64,000 nt of DNA from Nocardia vinacea (lineage in GTDB: Bacteria; Actinomycetota; Actinomycetes; Mycobacteriales; Mycobacteriaceae), in the NCBI RefSeq assembly GCF_035920345.1, contig NZ_CP109149.1:5518001-5582000 (forward strand), written 5' to 3'. This document shows, one piece after another, positions 37,940 to 43,018 of this stretch. A program made the position numbers and the translations under genes. How positions within the stretch are numbered: the first letter of the stretch is position 1; every line of letters begins with the position of its first letter. Under the pieces are notes generated by a model. It made no database searches. It was not told the origin of the DNA and worked only from the letters and a program-made list of their open reading frames with translations.

Positions 37940-38194
37940 ATGGAGGATCTCGCCGCGCGATTCGAGGAGCTGGGTCGCCTTGTACCGATCCCCTACCCAT
38001 GGGACATAACGGAATACATCGCGCGGGTGGCAGAGTACCGGGGACGGCCGATCACGTTGTGCCCGATCGACGTCGGCGCACTCTCGAGGAACGGATGCGG
38101 CACCGGAAGCGGCCTGTGGATTGCCCGGGAAGGCGACGACGTGATCATGTACGGGGCCGACTCCGAATGGCATGCCGATCACATCATCGTCCAC
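37940..38194 (+). pseudogene. ImmA/IrrE-like metallopeptidase gene, 5' part, interrupted by RIT element
   Basis: Good RBS (gggggaagg) and ATG at 37940. Residues 1-85 match the start of actinobacterial ImmA/IrrE-type proteins: VAEYRGRPITLCPIDV, SGLWIAREGDDVIMYG, and HADHIIVH at the end. In the family HIIVH is followed by ExGH; here the frame runs into the insertion (CTATGCCGAGG) and stops at 38242. The missing E-I-G-H-M-L-L sequence begins at 41593, after the element. The truncated 100-residue product could still be made but lacks the catalytic HExxH. Confidence 0.85.
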
Positions 38195-38219
38195 CTATGC
38201 CGAGGTGGGAACTATGCCG
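38189..38219 (+). repeat. RIT left inverted repeat
   Basis: 31 bp, gtccacctatgccgaggtgg then gaactatgccg. It matches the reverse complement of 41536-41566 with one mismatch (position 38208, gg against ag). The first 6 bp are also the host codons Val-His, so the true element end may be at 38195. Confidence 0.9.
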
Positions 38220-38292
38220 CTGCGGCAGGGATCGTGACGTGAAAGCCCTGGTAATGGCGGCAGAAGGACTCGGTATGGCGGCGAAACGGCCT

Positions 38293-38302
38293 GCATAGTT
38301 CC
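38293..38302. promoter_or_regulatory. Internal arm-type repeat of RIT element
   Basis: GCATAGTTCC is the exact inverse of GGAACTATGC at 38208-38217, about 75 bp further in, and close to the sequence GGCATAGTTC near the right end. It could be an accessory recombinase site or part of the ritA promoter region. Confidence 0.45.
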
Positions 38303-38331
38303 AGCGGCAGCACTGATACTTCTTCTGATGG

Positions 38332-39543
38332 GTGAGTGCGTCAGATGGAGGCGTGATCATGGTCGGGACTCGGAGAAAGCCGGGCAGGATGGGCCCATAC
38401 ATCGCCGGTTACCGAAATCATCTGGAGGAGTGCCGATACACCTCCGCCACGATCCGGAACATGTTGCAGATCATCGGCGATCTGGGACGCTGGATGATCG
38501 AGCAGGACGTGACGGCAGAGCAGCTGACCGCGAAATCTCTGGAGGAATTCCGCAGGGTCTGTTGCGAAGCGATGCGCCACCCGCCGACCGCGAAGAGCCT
38601 CAACCCGCTCATCGACTTCCTGAAATCGGAAGGGCTACTGACAGATCCGCCAGTCGTCCTCGATCCGCTGGACCCCTTGATCGGCGAATACCGTGCATGG
38701 CTGGTGAGCGACCGAGGTCTAGCGGCGACCACGATCGTCCGCTACGAGAGCCTGGCCCGCCGGTTCCTGGCCGAGGCATGTCCAAGCGGACCTGGCGAAC
38801 TGGATGGCGCGGACATCGTCGCGTTTCTGCTGGCCGAAAGCCCGCGAGTCAGCGTCGGCGCGATCAAAGGCCGTGTCGCAGAGCTGCGGTCGCTGCTGAA
38901 GTTTTTGTATCTGCGCGGGCTGCTTCCACACCCGTTGACTTCGGCGGTTCCGCCGGTCGCTGGCTGGCACGACACCGGCATCCCGAAGTCGATCACCGCT
39001 GGGCAGGTCCAGCGACTACTCGACACCTGCGACCGCGATGACCCGGTCCAGATCCGCGACTACGCCATCTTGACCATGATCGCGAGGCTGGGACTGCGCT
39101 CGATCGAGGTCGCACGCCTGGAAGTGGGCGATATCGATTGGCGGGGCGGGCGGATCATCTTGCGCGGCAAAGCGTCCCGCGAGGATGCAATGCCGATGCC
39201 GTTCGACGTCGGGGAGGCCATCAGCGCCTATCTGACCGCTGTCCGGCCGACGACGACGTTGCGCCCGGTATTCGTGACCTGCAAAGCGCCCCTGCGCGGC
39301 ATCCGCGCCGATTTGGTCAGCGATGTCACCCGCCGAGCCTGCGATCGGGCGGGTCTGCCGCGCGTCGGCGCTCATCGGCTGCGACACTCGCTGGCCACCG
39401 AAATGCTGCGCCGCGGAGTTCCGCTCGTCGATATCAGCCAGGTCCTTCGCCACCGAGACCTGGCCACGACCGCGATTTATGCGAAGGTCGACCTCTCCAC
39501 GCTGCGCGACATCGCCGCCGAATGGCCCGGAGCGCCACGATGA
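38332..39543 (+). CDS. ritA: RIT tyrosine recombinase A
   Basis: 403 residues from GTG 38332 (ATG at 38359 possible). A SAM-like core-binding domain (GPYIAGYRNHLEECRYTSAT, repeated as EYRAWLVSDRGLAATTI) and a tyrosine-recombinase catalytic domain. Catalytic residues: Arg in ARLGLRSIEVARL, HRLRH (His-x-x-Arg), His in QVLRHRDLATT, Tyr in AIYAKVDL. First of three ATGA-linked recombinase genes in the element. All three act together in RIT elements as far as is known. Confidence 0.9.
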   Translation: MSASDGGVIMVGTRRKPGRMGPYIAGYRNHLEECRYTSATIRNMLQIIGDLGRWMIEQDVTAEQLTAKSLEEFRRVCCEAMRHPPTAKSLNPLIDFLKSEGLLTDPPVVLDPLDPLIGEYRAWLVSDRGLAATTIVRYESLARRFLAEACPSGPGELDGADIVAFLLAESPRVSVGAIKGRVAELRSLLKFLYLRGLLPHPLTSAVPPVAGWHDTGIPKSITAGQVQRLLDTCDRDDPVQIRDYAILTMIARLGLRSIEVARLEVGDIDWRGGRIILRGKASREDAMPMPFDVGEAISAYLTAVRPTTTLRPVFVTCKAPLRGIRADLVSDVTRRACDRAGLPRVGAHRLRHSLATEMLRRGVPLVDISQVLRHRDLATTAIYAKVDLSTLRDIAAEWPGAPR

Positions 39544-40472
39544 GCCGGTTGTCTCAGGCTGCTACCGACTACCTGGATCTGCGCAAACGGCTCGGCCACG
39601 ACCTGGCCGAGCACCATCGACTGCTGCCGCGGTTCGTCGCCTATCTCGACCATATCGGGGCGCCGACAGTCACGATCAACGCCGCAATGGACTGGGCCCT
39701 GGCACCCGAGGTCGATGCGGCGACCTCGAACCCGGCACGCCGGATGACGATCGCCCGCCGCTTCGCCCAGCACATGGCCGGGCTGGACCCGCGCACCGAA
39801 GTCCCACCACCAGGGTTGATCTCGTTCCCTCAACGCTGGCATCCGCCGTTCATCTACACCCGAACCGACCTGGAAACACTGACCACTCAGGCGCGACGCC
39901 AGGTCCAGGGTCGGCTGCCGGCGGCCACTCACTCCACGATGCTGGGCCTGCTCGGCGCCACTGGTCTGCGGGTCGGCGAAGCGATCCGCCTCGACCGCAC
40001 CGACATCGACTGGACAGACCAAGCACTGCTGATCCGAGAATCGAAATTCGGCAAATCCCGACTGGTTCCGATCCTGCCATCCACCGTCACTGCCCTGCGC
40101 GACTACGCCGACATCCGCGACGAGCACCACCTGAACGCGGCAACGGCTAGCTTCTTCGTCTCCCGCCGCGGCGCCCGGATGGTCTATCCCTGCGTTCATG
40201 CGATCTTCCGGAAGTTGTGTCACACCAACGGAATCGGGGCCGAAGCGCCCCGCCCACCACGCATCCACGACCTGCGGCACTCGTTCGCGGTCAACACGTT
40301 GCTGCGCTGGCATCGAACCGGCGAGGACGTCGAAGCGAAACTTCCGACGCTGTCGACCTATCTCGGTCATCGGGACCCGCGCTCGACCTACTGGTATCTG
40401 TCGGCGGCCCCGGAGCTGCTGAGTCTTGCCGCACAGCGGCTCGAATACTCGGTCCAAGCGAGGCCGTCATGA
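39540..40472 (+). CDS. ritB: RIT tyrosine recombinase B
   Basis: 310 residues; ATG overlaps the ritA stop and the stop overlaps the ritC ATG (both ATGA). Catalytic set is complete: Arg in GLRVGEAIRLDR, HDLRH, GHRDPRSTYWYL with nucleophile Tyr. Shorter N-terminal domain than ritA. A GC-rich open frame starting at 39138 is only an upstream extension. It belongs to the usual RitB type, whose N-terminal domain (ATDYLDLRKRLGHDL) is distinct from A and C. Confidence 0.9.
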   Translation: MSRLSQAATDYLDLRKRLGHDLAEHHRLLPRFVAYLDHIGAPTVTINAAMDWALAPEVDAATSNPARRMTIARRFAQHMAGLDPRTEVPPPGLISFPQRWHPPFIYTRTDLETLTTQARRQVQGRLPAATHSTMLGLLGATGLRVGEAIRLDRTDIDWTDQALLIRESKFGKSRLVPILPSTVTALRDYADIRDEHHLNAATASFFVSRRGARMVYPCVHAIFRKLCHTNGIGAEAPRPPRIHDLRHSFAVNTLLRWHRTGEDVEAKLPTLSTYLGHRDPRSTYWYLSAAPELLSLAAQRLEYSVQARPS

Positions 40473-41458
40473 CCGCGATCGCCGCCACCCTGCAGAACTT
40501 CTTCACCGAACGGCTTATCAAACACCGCCACGTCAGCCCGCGCACGATCGCCTCCTACCGCGACTCTCTGAAACTGTTGCTGGGCTTCGTTTCCCAACGC
40601 GCGGGGAAACCAGCGTCCGACCTGGACTGGGCCGACCTGAACGTCGACACCATCAGCGCGTTCCTCGATCACCTCGAACACGAGCGCAGTAACAGCCCCC
40701 GCACCCGCAACCTGCGGCTGACCGCGATCCGGTCCCTGTTCACCTATGCCTCCCTGCGACACCCCGAGCACGCCGAGCTGATCCAGCGAGTGCTGGCGAT
40801 CCCACCCAAACGGTTCGACAAACAGCTCGTCGCGTTCCTGACCAGCACCGAGATCGACGCCCTGCTCGCAGCACCGAACCGCGATCGCTGGGAAGGTCGC
40901 CGTGATCACGCCCTGCTGTTGGTCGCGGTCCAAACCGGGCTACGCGTCTCCGAACTGACCGGGCTCAACTGCGGCGACATCAGTCTCGGCGCTGGAGCCA
41001 ACCTCCGCTGCCTCGGCAAGGGGCGCAAACACCGCGCAGTTCCGCTGACCACTCCCACACAGCGGGTGCTGCGCGTCTGGACCGACGAACGAGCCGGCGA
41101 AGCCCCTCAGCCCTTGTTTCCGACCCGCACCGGCCGACGGCTCAGCGCCGACGCTATAGAACGCCTGGTCCGCCGACATGCGACCACCGCAGCCCAATCC
41201 TGCCCCAGCATCCGGCCGGCCGACCTGCATCCACACGTCCTGCGACACAGCTGCGCGATGGCGTTATTGCACGCTGGCGTCGACACCGCTGTCATCGCAC
41301 TCTGGCTCGGCCACGCCGACATCCGATCCACCGGAATCTATCTGCACGCCGACATGACCATCAAGCAACGCGCACTCGACCAGACAACCCAGGCTTCAAC
41401 ACCGCCGGGCATCTACCGCCCGACAGACACCCTCTTGGCCTTCCTCGAAAACCTGTGA
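40469..41458 (+). CDS. ritC: RIT tyrosine recombinase C
   Basis: 329 residues. Core-binding domain (FFTERLIKHRHVSPRTIASYRD) and catalytic domain with Arg in GLRVSELTGLN, HVLRHSCAM, and GHADIRSTGIYLHAD giving the Tyr. The XerC/D-like layout HADIRSTxxYLH is usual for this class. Ends 77 bp before the right inverted repeat. No stem-loop terminator is obvious behind it. Confidence 0.92.
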   Translation: MTAIAATLQNFFTERLIKHRHVSPRTIASYRDSLKLLLGFVSQRAGKPASDLDWADLNVDTISAFLDHLEHERSNSPRTRNLRLTAIRSLFTYASLRHPEHAELIQRVLAIPPKRFDKQLVAFLTSTEIDALLAAPNRDRWEGRRDHALLLVAVQTGLRVSELTGLNCGDISLGAGANLRCLGKGRKHRAVPLTTPTQRVLRVWTDERAGEAPQPLFPTRTGRRLSADAIERLVRRHATTAAQSCPSIRPADLHPHVLRHSCAMALLHAGVDTAVIALWLGHADIRSTGIYLHADMTIKQRALDQTTQASTPPGIYRPTDTLLAFLENL

Positions 41459-41535
41459 TCAGACCGACCGCTGGATATCACTAGCTGCGGAACATGCTGC
41501 GCTGCTACAGATTCGATGTCATGCGCCGATCTGCT

Positions 41536-41566
41536 CGGCATAGTTCTCACCTCGGCATAGGTGGAC
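41536..41566 (-). repeat. RIT right inverted repeat
   Basis: 31 bp, cggcatagttctcacctcgg then cataggtggac. It pairs with 38189-38219 with one mismatch. Confidence 0.9.
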
Positions 41567-41587
41567 CTATGCCGACGTCGGCATAGG
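41566..41587. repeat. Perfect 22-bp palindrome at RIT right end
   Basis: cctatgccgac followed by gtcggcatagg, with no spacer. It lies between the right inverted repeat and the peptidase fragment and has no counterpart at the left end. Confidence 0.95.
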
Positions 41588-41592
41588 TCGAC

Positions 41593-41850
41593 GAGATCGG
41601 TCACATGCTGCTCGGCCACGGAGGGACCGCGAGCGGTCCCGGTGGTGCTGCGGCTGATCTGCCGTTGCGCGAATTGATGCCCTCGCTGTCGCTGGAAACC
41701 ATCCGCAGCGTACTGCGCCGCCAGGACTACGGCAGTGAGCGCGAGCGCGCCGCCGAAACCTTCGCCGACCTGCTGCTGGTCGAAGCGATGCTACCGAAGC
41801 GGTCGGCGAGCCGGTTCCGCTCGACGTTCTTCCGGAACCGGCATCGATGA
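41593..41850 (+). pseudogene. ImmA/IrrE-like metallopeptidase gene, 3' part
   Basis: Continues the frame of the 5' part: EIGHMLLGHGGTASGPGG, the second half of the HExxH zinc motif, then LPLRELMPSLSLETIRSVL and ERERAAETFADLLLVEAM, where the conserved Glu-rich helix (third zinc ligand region) is expected. Ends 1 bp before the next ATG. Starting at an in-frame ATG (41605) would give 81 residues lacking the catalytic HE. It is therefore a dead fragment unless the RIT element excises. Confidence 0.85.
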
Positions 41851-41851
41851 G

Positions 41852-43018
41852 ATGACCTCCCCGGTTCCGGCTCTGATCACCTGGCCCGTCCTGACAGGTC
41901 TCACGTTGGTGCTCGCCGGTCGGTGGTGGCTGTTGCGGGACAGCCTCGTCGACCGACTCATCAACCGCGCGCTCGCCGCCGCTCTCTGCGAAAACCTGTT
42001 GCGGGACGCATGGTTCGAACAGTCACTGGCCTGGCTGCTGCCCGGCGACGACCGCGACGTGGTGAACATCGCCCGACAGCTCTCGCTGGGAGCAACCCTG
42101 TTGGGCATCTCGAATATCTACGGCTTTGCCAAGTTGTGGGCAGGTGCCGATCCCGCCCACACATGGCGCCGGCAGTGGCGCTATTACCTCGTCACGATCA
42201 CCGCCACCGCCGTCATCCTGATCGCAGGGACGCCCGCCCGCCACGCCGACCAGTTGATCGACCAAGCCCTCGGCTGGCCGGCTGTCGTGGTCTGCCTCGC
42301 GTTTTCCCTGCCGCTCGGCGCTACAGCCCTGCTCCTCAGCCGGGTAAGTGTGCGCGAGATGCGCGCCGTCGGCGCCACCACCTGGCAGGAACGTGCACTG
42401 TACACAGCGGTCCTGGGCACCATAGTGGGCCTGGGGGCCATAGCGGTCGGATACCCGCTCGGGACCATCATCAGTCTCATCACAGGCCAACCGTCATTCG
42501 ATCCCGAGATGCACTGGGAAGCATGGAGCGGCTTCCTTCTCTCGGCCGTCGGCGCTCCCGCCGTGGTCACGGTGCCGCTGATCAGCACCCTGCTCACCCA
42601 TATCGGATGGGACCGCACCGGCCGATACTGCCGTCGCCTGCGGCCGATGTGGGCCGATCTCACCGCAGCCGCACCCGAAATCGTCCTGGAGATGCGGCGC
42701 GACCACACCGGCCGAGCAGACCCGGCCATCCGTCTGCACCGCATGACGGTCGAGATCCGCGACAGCCTGCTGCATCTCAAGCGCTACAGCGACAGCCCTG
42801 ACGATCTGGCCGCCACAGGCGGTGACCCACATATCTATGCCCGCCGCATCGCCGAGGCCATTGCCACCAAAGCTGCCGGGCACCCGCCGAGCGCGAGCCG
42901 GTTCACGCCACGGCACCAAGTCCAACCGGGGGCACGGGATCTCACCGCGGAGCTGCGCCAGCTACTCGCACTTGCCAAGGCATGGCCACACGTCCGCAGC
43001 TTGACAAAATCGCCGTAG
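41852..43018 (+). CDS. DUF6545/MAB_1171c-type membrane protein
   Basis: 388 residues from ATG 41852 (MTSPVPALITWPVLTGL). Six to seven membrane helices (to about residue 260), then a C-terminal cytosolic domain with RADPAIRLHRMTVEIRDSLLHLKRY, the region typical for the DUF6545 tail. It sits just behind the ImmA/IrrE-like gene (1 bp), and this peptidase-membrane-protein pairing recurs in actinobacteria as an unknown two-gene system. The insertion upstream probably affects its translation coupling. Role unknown. Confidence 0.8.
   Translation: MTSPVPALITWPVLTGLTLVLAGRWWLLRDSLVDRLINRALAAALCENLLRDAWFEQSLAWLLPGDDRDVVNIARQLSLGATLLGISNIYGFAKLWAGADPAHTWRRQWRYYLVTITATAVILIAGTPARHADQLIDQALGWPAVVVCLAFSLPLGATALLLSRVSVREMRAVGATTWQERALYTAVLGTIVGLGAIAVGYPLGTIISLITGQPSFDPEMHWEAWSGFLLSAVGAPAVVTVPLISTLLTHIGWDRTGRYCRRLRPMWADLTAAAPEIVLEMRRDHTGRADPAIRLHRMTVEIRDSLLHLKRYSDSPDDLAATGGDPHIYARRIAEAIATKAAGHPPSASRFTPRHQVQPGARDLTAELRQLLALAKAWPHVRSLTKSP

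Follow-up and report, generated by a model that had tools for sequence, protein, structure and literature searches.

How do mobile elements that carry a trio of tyrosine recombinases choose their sites and insert there? The question is raised by a stretch of 64,000 nucleotides from Nocardia vinacea (hereafter the window; C1:5518001-5582000 of a single-contig genome of 10.36 Mb), in which a gene for an ImmA/IrrE-like (M78) peptidase is split within its HExxH motif by a recombinase-in-trio (RIT) element at 38195-41592. The movement of RIT elements, their targets and their need for three recombinases are the questions addressed herein; target specificity, empty site and movement are listed as not tested for RITs in a comparison published in 2023, as far as the accessible text of that source goes (PMC10214605). 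Relatives of the element suggest how RIT elements choose sites and insert, and our best explanation for the whole, which we consider probable, is that a RIT lies in the M78-like peptidase gene with a particular layout of palindrome and spacers, and that it would pass through a circle with two crossover sites.

The element and the gene it splits

The two pieces of the peptidase gene lie on the + strand at 37940-38194 (N-terminal, 85 codons) and 41593-41850 (C-terminal), both assigned by homologue alignment. In all 30 uninterrupted homologues examined, residue 85 of the left piece abuts residue 1 of the right piece directly, and in none of them do the two frames stand as separate genes or with a different sequence joining them. 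These homologues are the genome's own paralogue and 29 loci fetched from the 108 of 148 genus genomes that matched the split gene, and the adjacency was read from the homologue alignments, the window flanks themselves not being joined. The HExxH motif is read in 30/30, and the insertion point falls between its His and Glu codons. A sequence-only reading of this DNA had taken the flanking fragments for one gene, and had placed a RIT insertion in it between the codons of the catalytic His and Glu, all of which is borne out here. It had also stated that joining 38194 to 41593 is exact and in frame; this stands for the adjacency, with the qualification that the window has an unusual Val before the catalytic His, where 29/30 homologues have Ala and only the paralogue has Val. 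The paralogue itself (C1:5319443-5319559) is uninterrupted, shows 57% identity to the left fragment and carries GTCCAC at the equivalent site. As for the family, the model PF06114 gives an orthologue (P0001) an E value of 0.006 and 16.8 bits, below the cutoff of 22, and another homologue (P0050) 3.3e-5 and 24.1 bits, above it; the annotations of 95 homologues are mostly hypothetical, though zinc metalloprotease, ImmA/IrrE metallo-endopeptidase and IrrE N-terminal-like also appear among them. Both the recombinase and the split gene have their closest named relatives in Nocardia. In its present split form the peptidase gene is expected to be inactive.

The insert is a RIT transposon of 3,398 bp, with a body of 3,366 bp (38195-41560) and a tail of 32 bp. 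Three open reading frames (ORFs) for tyrosine recombinases follow one another on the + strand, at 38359-39543 (RitA position, 394 aa), 39540-40472 (RitB position, 310 aa) and 40469-41458 (RitC position, 329 aa); they are joined by ATGA overlaps at 39540-39543 and 40469-40472, each matches PF00589, and the other long frames between the ends overlap these three. The body is bounded by terminal inverted repeats (TIRs) of 25 bp with one mismatch, at 38195-38219 (+ strand, with two YTATGCC units) and 41536-41560 (- strand), and the match extends outward over the next 6 bp to give a 31-nt repeat (97%), spacer included. Both the linked trio and the inverted repeats had been read correctly from the letters. 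The six bases before 38195, GTCCAC (38189-38194, + strand), are the last six of the left gene fragment and encode V-H; they look like a crossover spacer on the native side, here called s5. After the body come the inner spacer s_in, GTGGAC (41561-41566, + strand), which is the reverse complement of s5; a perfect 20-bp palindrome, CTATGCCGACGTCGGCATAG (PAL; 41567-41586, without strand), which, with up to one mismatch allowed, occurs nowhere else in the genome; and the outer spacer s3, GTCGAC (41587-41592, + strand), which reads V-D where homologues read V/A-H and is taken as element-borne. The size proposed earlier is confirmed, but the insert consists of several parts rather than a single block, with a right end more complex than a plain terminus.

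According to the accessible text of two papers on RIT elements, these measure about 3.5 kb, comprise a trio of neighbouring tyrosine recombinase genes that overlap by ATGA, carry inverted repeats of 28-29 bp with which a palindromic sequence overlaps, insert inside genes such as radC and transposase genes, and occur as identical copies within one genome (PMC2864759, PMC3414803). The window element is like these in its overlapping trio, its size, its inverted repeats, its insertion in a gene and its identical copies. Two core-binding domains in RitA and an extra C-terminal helix in RitC are given as defining traits in the portion of a further paper that bears on them (PMC8138268); in the first recombinase of the window, Pfam SAM-like matches lie at 110-187 and, weakly and below cutoff, at 14-56.

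The genome contains another copy of the body at C1:977400-980765 (locus L009, C1:972000-986000), with full identity over 3,366 bp, and because of this identity both body ends are fixed. Identical body copies in one genome are a sign of mobility for RITs. One flank of the second copy is the N-terminal side of an istB gene (PF01695), with the six bases GTCGAC; the other flank is unrelated, with no identity found, and there is no PAL, as if two RIT insertions had recombined. With this identical copy located at istB, the window site is one of several. This bears directly upon the earlier suggestion that the element may switch the peptidase gene reversibly, in favor of which the insertion leaves the reading frame unshifted and no recombinase ORF of the trio is interrupted. 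No second state of the locus was found, nor any locus with both states; moreover, the His codon of s5 is not retained in s3, and the window site matches the istB preference of the element described below. With GTCGAC on the right and GTCCAC on the left, excision keeping the right six bases would leave Asp in place of the His codon. The suggestion is therefore not upheld, and we regard such a switch as very unlikely. Strand-biased circularizing integrative elements (SEs), which share a 6-bp footprint, are reported to give no empty site, so far as the consulted part of the source describes them (PMC10214605).

Layout of related elements

Relatives were collected through matches to the recombinase RecC, which gave 62 loci in named genomes, 12 positive genomes out of 397 in the order (at E 1e-70) and 12 out of 396 in the phylum, the own genome being included in both, 2 loci in a scan of viral contigs, and 556 plasmid records with a match, from which 12 were fetched for the survey. 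Matches beginning beyond query residue 60 were excluded before counting. The retained set comprises 76 matches, duplicates included (L034 and L133 look alike, and L123 holds two), each with an inverted repeat of at least 20 bp, while the other 36 had none in reach and were dropped; 63 elements have at least 60 bp on both sides. Writing T5 and T3 for the flanks on the N-terminal and C-terminal sides of the target gene, the layout T5-s5-TIR..TIR-s_in-PAL-s3-T3 is present in 54/63 of these related RITs when up to 3 mismatched pairs are allowed. Two more (L048 and L056) show it by eye at a different offset, and two (L009 and L029) are without PAL. With a strict setting of at most one mismatched pair, a 20-bp palindrome is found at the end of 45/63 elements, the hit in four of them (L140, L021, L126, L069) being the pair of arms around s_in, with PAL itself adjoining, compared with 20/1,260 control windows in the body and 19/900 in the flank.

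The exact form of PAL has 9 occurrences, spread over 5 of the 397 genomes of the order, against 0 for a control pattern, and a TIR directly adjoins all 9 (4 of them in a single genome). A palindrome might also be a pre-existing genomic repeat used as a landing site, beside which the RIT inserted, and the resemblance of the PAL arms to the TIR arms does make a recombinase site possible; we nevertheless consider this exceedingly unlikely, as intact targets are without PAL in 30/30 homologues of the window gene and at 7/7 other loci, and no solo PAL stands among the nine exact sites. The idea that PAL is a scar left by departed RITs was rejected as well, all nine exact sites abutting a TIR, in a scan of the exact spelling only.

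The six-base footprint

The spacers on the two sides of these elements match each other more often than permutation predicts. Over 53 non-redundant ends, s5 equals s3 in 21, s5 equals the reverse complement of s_in in 25, and s3 equals this reverse complement in 21; for the first two, the permutation means are 0.92 and 0.95, with maxima of 5. At the 32 ends where s5 and s3 are unequal, the reverse complement of s_in equals s5 in 10 and s3 in 6. Which of the two outer spacers is native can be read where an intact close copy of the target exists. Nine loci were hand-picked for this purpose, eight as s5 and s3 differ and one (L118) with equal spacers, and the test covers seven of them: L123, with an intact copy in its own genome (100% over 401 bases), and L144, L145, L146, L147, L148 and L151, with copies on plasmids (93-98%). 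In 7/7, the native six bases are s5 and not s3. For L122 and L118, a search of the genome to which each belongs gave no empty site, and in L169, a second relative of L146, the six bases agree with neither spacer. In the window, s5 retains the His codon of 30/30 homologues and s3 does not. It is thus shown by comparison, where testable, that the target retains its own six bases at T5 and gains six foreign bases at T3.

As a separate observation, L122, L123 and L124 of one genome share s3, and their inner spacers are the s5 of another copy, possibly a record of jumps. A chain of jumps through the three was tried and is not relied on, as L124 looks like a hybrid and only one link fits, the other requiring a donor since lost.

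Polarity of the palindrome

Among 60 classified ends, 39 fall into ten target-site types, within each of which the side of PAL is constant and both orientations of the trio are present. The remaining 21 are unassigned, and L023, L025 and L048 among them fit their types by eye. The comparison accordingly shows a rule of polarity, in which the target site fixes the side of the palindrome while the gene trio can point either way. A candidate rule that the direction of the trio sets the PAL side was rejected, 22/53 non-redundant ends being RIT-minus. Elements with irregular flanks can be read in the same terms, with gene sides judged by eye: two T3 flanks go with two PALs in L018 (istB) and L149 (tyrosine recombinases), and two T5 flanks of an IS256-type gene go with no PAL in L029.

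Choice of target

Pfam was run on 18 separate flank fragments from 17 loci. The families recognised are IstB (PF01695), IS256 (PF00872), IS66 (PF03050), IS3-type rve (PF00665), DDE_Tnp_1 (PF01609), DDE_5 (PF13546), ArdC with its zincin domain (PF08401 and PF18818), tyrosine recombinase (PF00589) and DUF3489 (PF11994). Reading frames guessed for the flanks were wrong at several loci, for example in the window and L019, and were never used alone. The recognised junctions fall in codons of conserved motifs, which we take to be catalytic: D|E after hhhhD in istB, HE-x|x-H in ArdC, HxLR|H in tyrosine recombinases and G|D in IS3-type transposases. For instance, RITs on proteobacterial plasmids (L144, L145, L146, L148, L158, L170 and L171) interrupt the antirestriction gene ardC at the HExxH codons of its zincin domain, and therefore a zincin active site is struck in another RIT lineage too. 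In L151 and L168, the RIT lies at codons 3-5 of a gene for an SOS-response-associated peptidase, just past its catalytic Cys2.

Why then was the peptidase gene hit in the window? The main site of this lineage would be the Walker-B codons of istB (IIVDE-G), which the peptidase codons appear to resemble (IIVHEIG against IIVDEVG, with the pattern IIVHE-G), and we propose this resemblance of the active-site codons as the likely reason for the hit. Close relatives supplied eight sites of the istB and IS701 types for a site matrix of 30-mers; the window site scores 18.6, a value reached by 0 of 127,940 window 30-mers, the next best being 16.9. The matrix being small and uneven, this is support and not proof. 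Moreover, the spacers may retain traces of earlier sites. An istB-type site, for example the one at which the second copy lies, is the probable origin of GTCGAC, the s3 of the window; as GTCGAC is common at istB-type sites, the donor is not proved.

A predicted circle with two crossover sites

Both orientations of the trio are represented on two Acidiphilium plasmids, pACMV1 (L158) and pACRY01 (L170), which carry RITs in the same ArdC site. Their bodies are identical over 3,339 bp and inverted, the palindromes are reverse complements, s5 is unchanged, and the reverse complement of s_in and s3 are swapped. These would be exactly the two products predicted from a circle TIR-x-PAL-y-TIR used at either of its crossover sites. 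The strand of the palindrome is linked to orientation also in L019/L020 and L066/L068. We propose that the trio would make a circle whose ends are joined via x-PAL-y, namely two 6-bp crossover sites around the palindrome, such that each TIR with its palindrome half would be an equivalent attachment site (attP). At the T5 arm the joining partner would be the TIR, at the T3 arm the palindrome; a strand bias would leave the target's own six bases at T5, and the choice of attP would determine the orientation of the trio. The comparison in this way supplies base-level attachment sites, a crossover region of 6 bp, a polarity rule and a predicted circle junction, and therefore each step is testable; what it yields is a testable mechanism of integration, in which the circle step is inferred.

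A different history would have one attP at one end only, with the orientations and the spacer swap arising later by inversion of body and palindrome in place by the RIT recombinases. TIR and spacer together do form inverted repeats where s5 equals the reverse complement of s_in, which is a good substrate for inversion, and s_in is the native six bases in L144, L146 and L151 although s3 is not. To turn L158 into L170, however, two separate inversions are needed on this account as against one choice of attP, and we consider it rather unlikely.

Several observations weigh against the circle with two attP sites and the rules leading to it. The circle and its junction are deduced from comparison of inserted copies; two inversions in place also would convert L158 to L170; and in L025 compared with L126 and L027 the PAL strand is not tied to orientation. 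No recognisable PAL is present in five of the 63 elements (L130, L112, L052, L058, L075), and at 16 of the 32 ends with unequal outer spacers the reverse complement of s_in equals neither. In the window, base 2 of s5 is T where 29/30 homologues have C, so that either the native spelling of the strain differs or the spacer was partly converted. As to polarity, the patterns of the ten target-site types were drawn up post hoc with the data already viewed, the set contains near-duplicate rows (L144/L171, L116-L118, and L123 twice), the classifier misplaced L145, which belongs to ArdC, and L033 has a bare TIR next to the C-terminal part of DUF3489, the contig ending on the other side. The site matrix is weak, with two of its eight training sites sharing T5 and leave-one-out scores from -0.84 to 42, and with the spacer omitted 3 of 127,940 positions reach the score of the window site.

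A wider reading may be attached to the circle with two equivalent crossover sites around the palindrome, and we would give it even chances. Three recombinases would be needed since four unlike half-sites (TIR, palindrome, T5 and T3) are joined; the strand-biased insertion would be aimed at conserved codons of catalytic motifs, as with inteins and homing introns; and the 6-bp spacers would be a readable record of earlier sites.

Relation to known systems

In the openly licensed literature on RITs, as far as its accessible text goes, 6-bp spacers, a rule for the palindrome side, a rule for the native side and insertion at active-site codons were not found; for the palindrome itself, no novelty is claimed. 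Closest in manner are the SEs and Tn554, for which the consulted part of one source describes a 6-bp footprint and the placing of the donor's six bases at one side of the new site (PMC10214605). The RITs are like these in their tyrosine recombinases, 6-bp footprint and target specificity, and unlike them in their trio, as against four proteins in SE and TnpABC in Tn554; a palindrome between two crossover sites was not found described for either in the accessible part of the openly licensed literature. The gene sets IntA-Tfp-IntB-Srap or TnpA-TnpB-TnpC are not seen in the window, where the region between the TIRs yielded only the three PF00589 ORFs, in a search that used no protein model for SE or Tn554. 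A footprint of the SE/Tn554 type, with the native six bases on one side, is present at the 7/7 related RIT loci, and the His codon of the window points the same way. By this analogy the likeness is one of 'works like' and not of membership.

Six-bp spacers between recombinase arms, carried from the donor to the new site, occur also in integrative and conjugative elements (ICEs) of the Tn916 type, as coupling sequences, and in Xer/dif-using elements; the former use one integrase with Xis and the latter the host XerCD. We know of no trio and no end palindrome in either of them. The GInts, to judge from the part of their description at hand, are like the RITs in having several tyrosine recombinases in one operon and site-specific integration, and unlike them in having four gin genes and larger islands (PMC5385486).

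Further observations

Two of the surveyed loci hold more than one element. L123 contains two identical RIT copies, set about 4.9 kb from each other and flanked by identical sequence, resembling a tandem duplication, and in L142, a plasmid of Rhodococcus opacus, the recombinase genes of at least two RIT-like trios lie close by, one of them with incomplete ends. In the window, a gene for a putative transporter of the MAB_1171c family (NF042915) at 41852-43018 begins 1 base past the stop of the split gene, and the pairing of peptidase and MAB_1171c may be functional.

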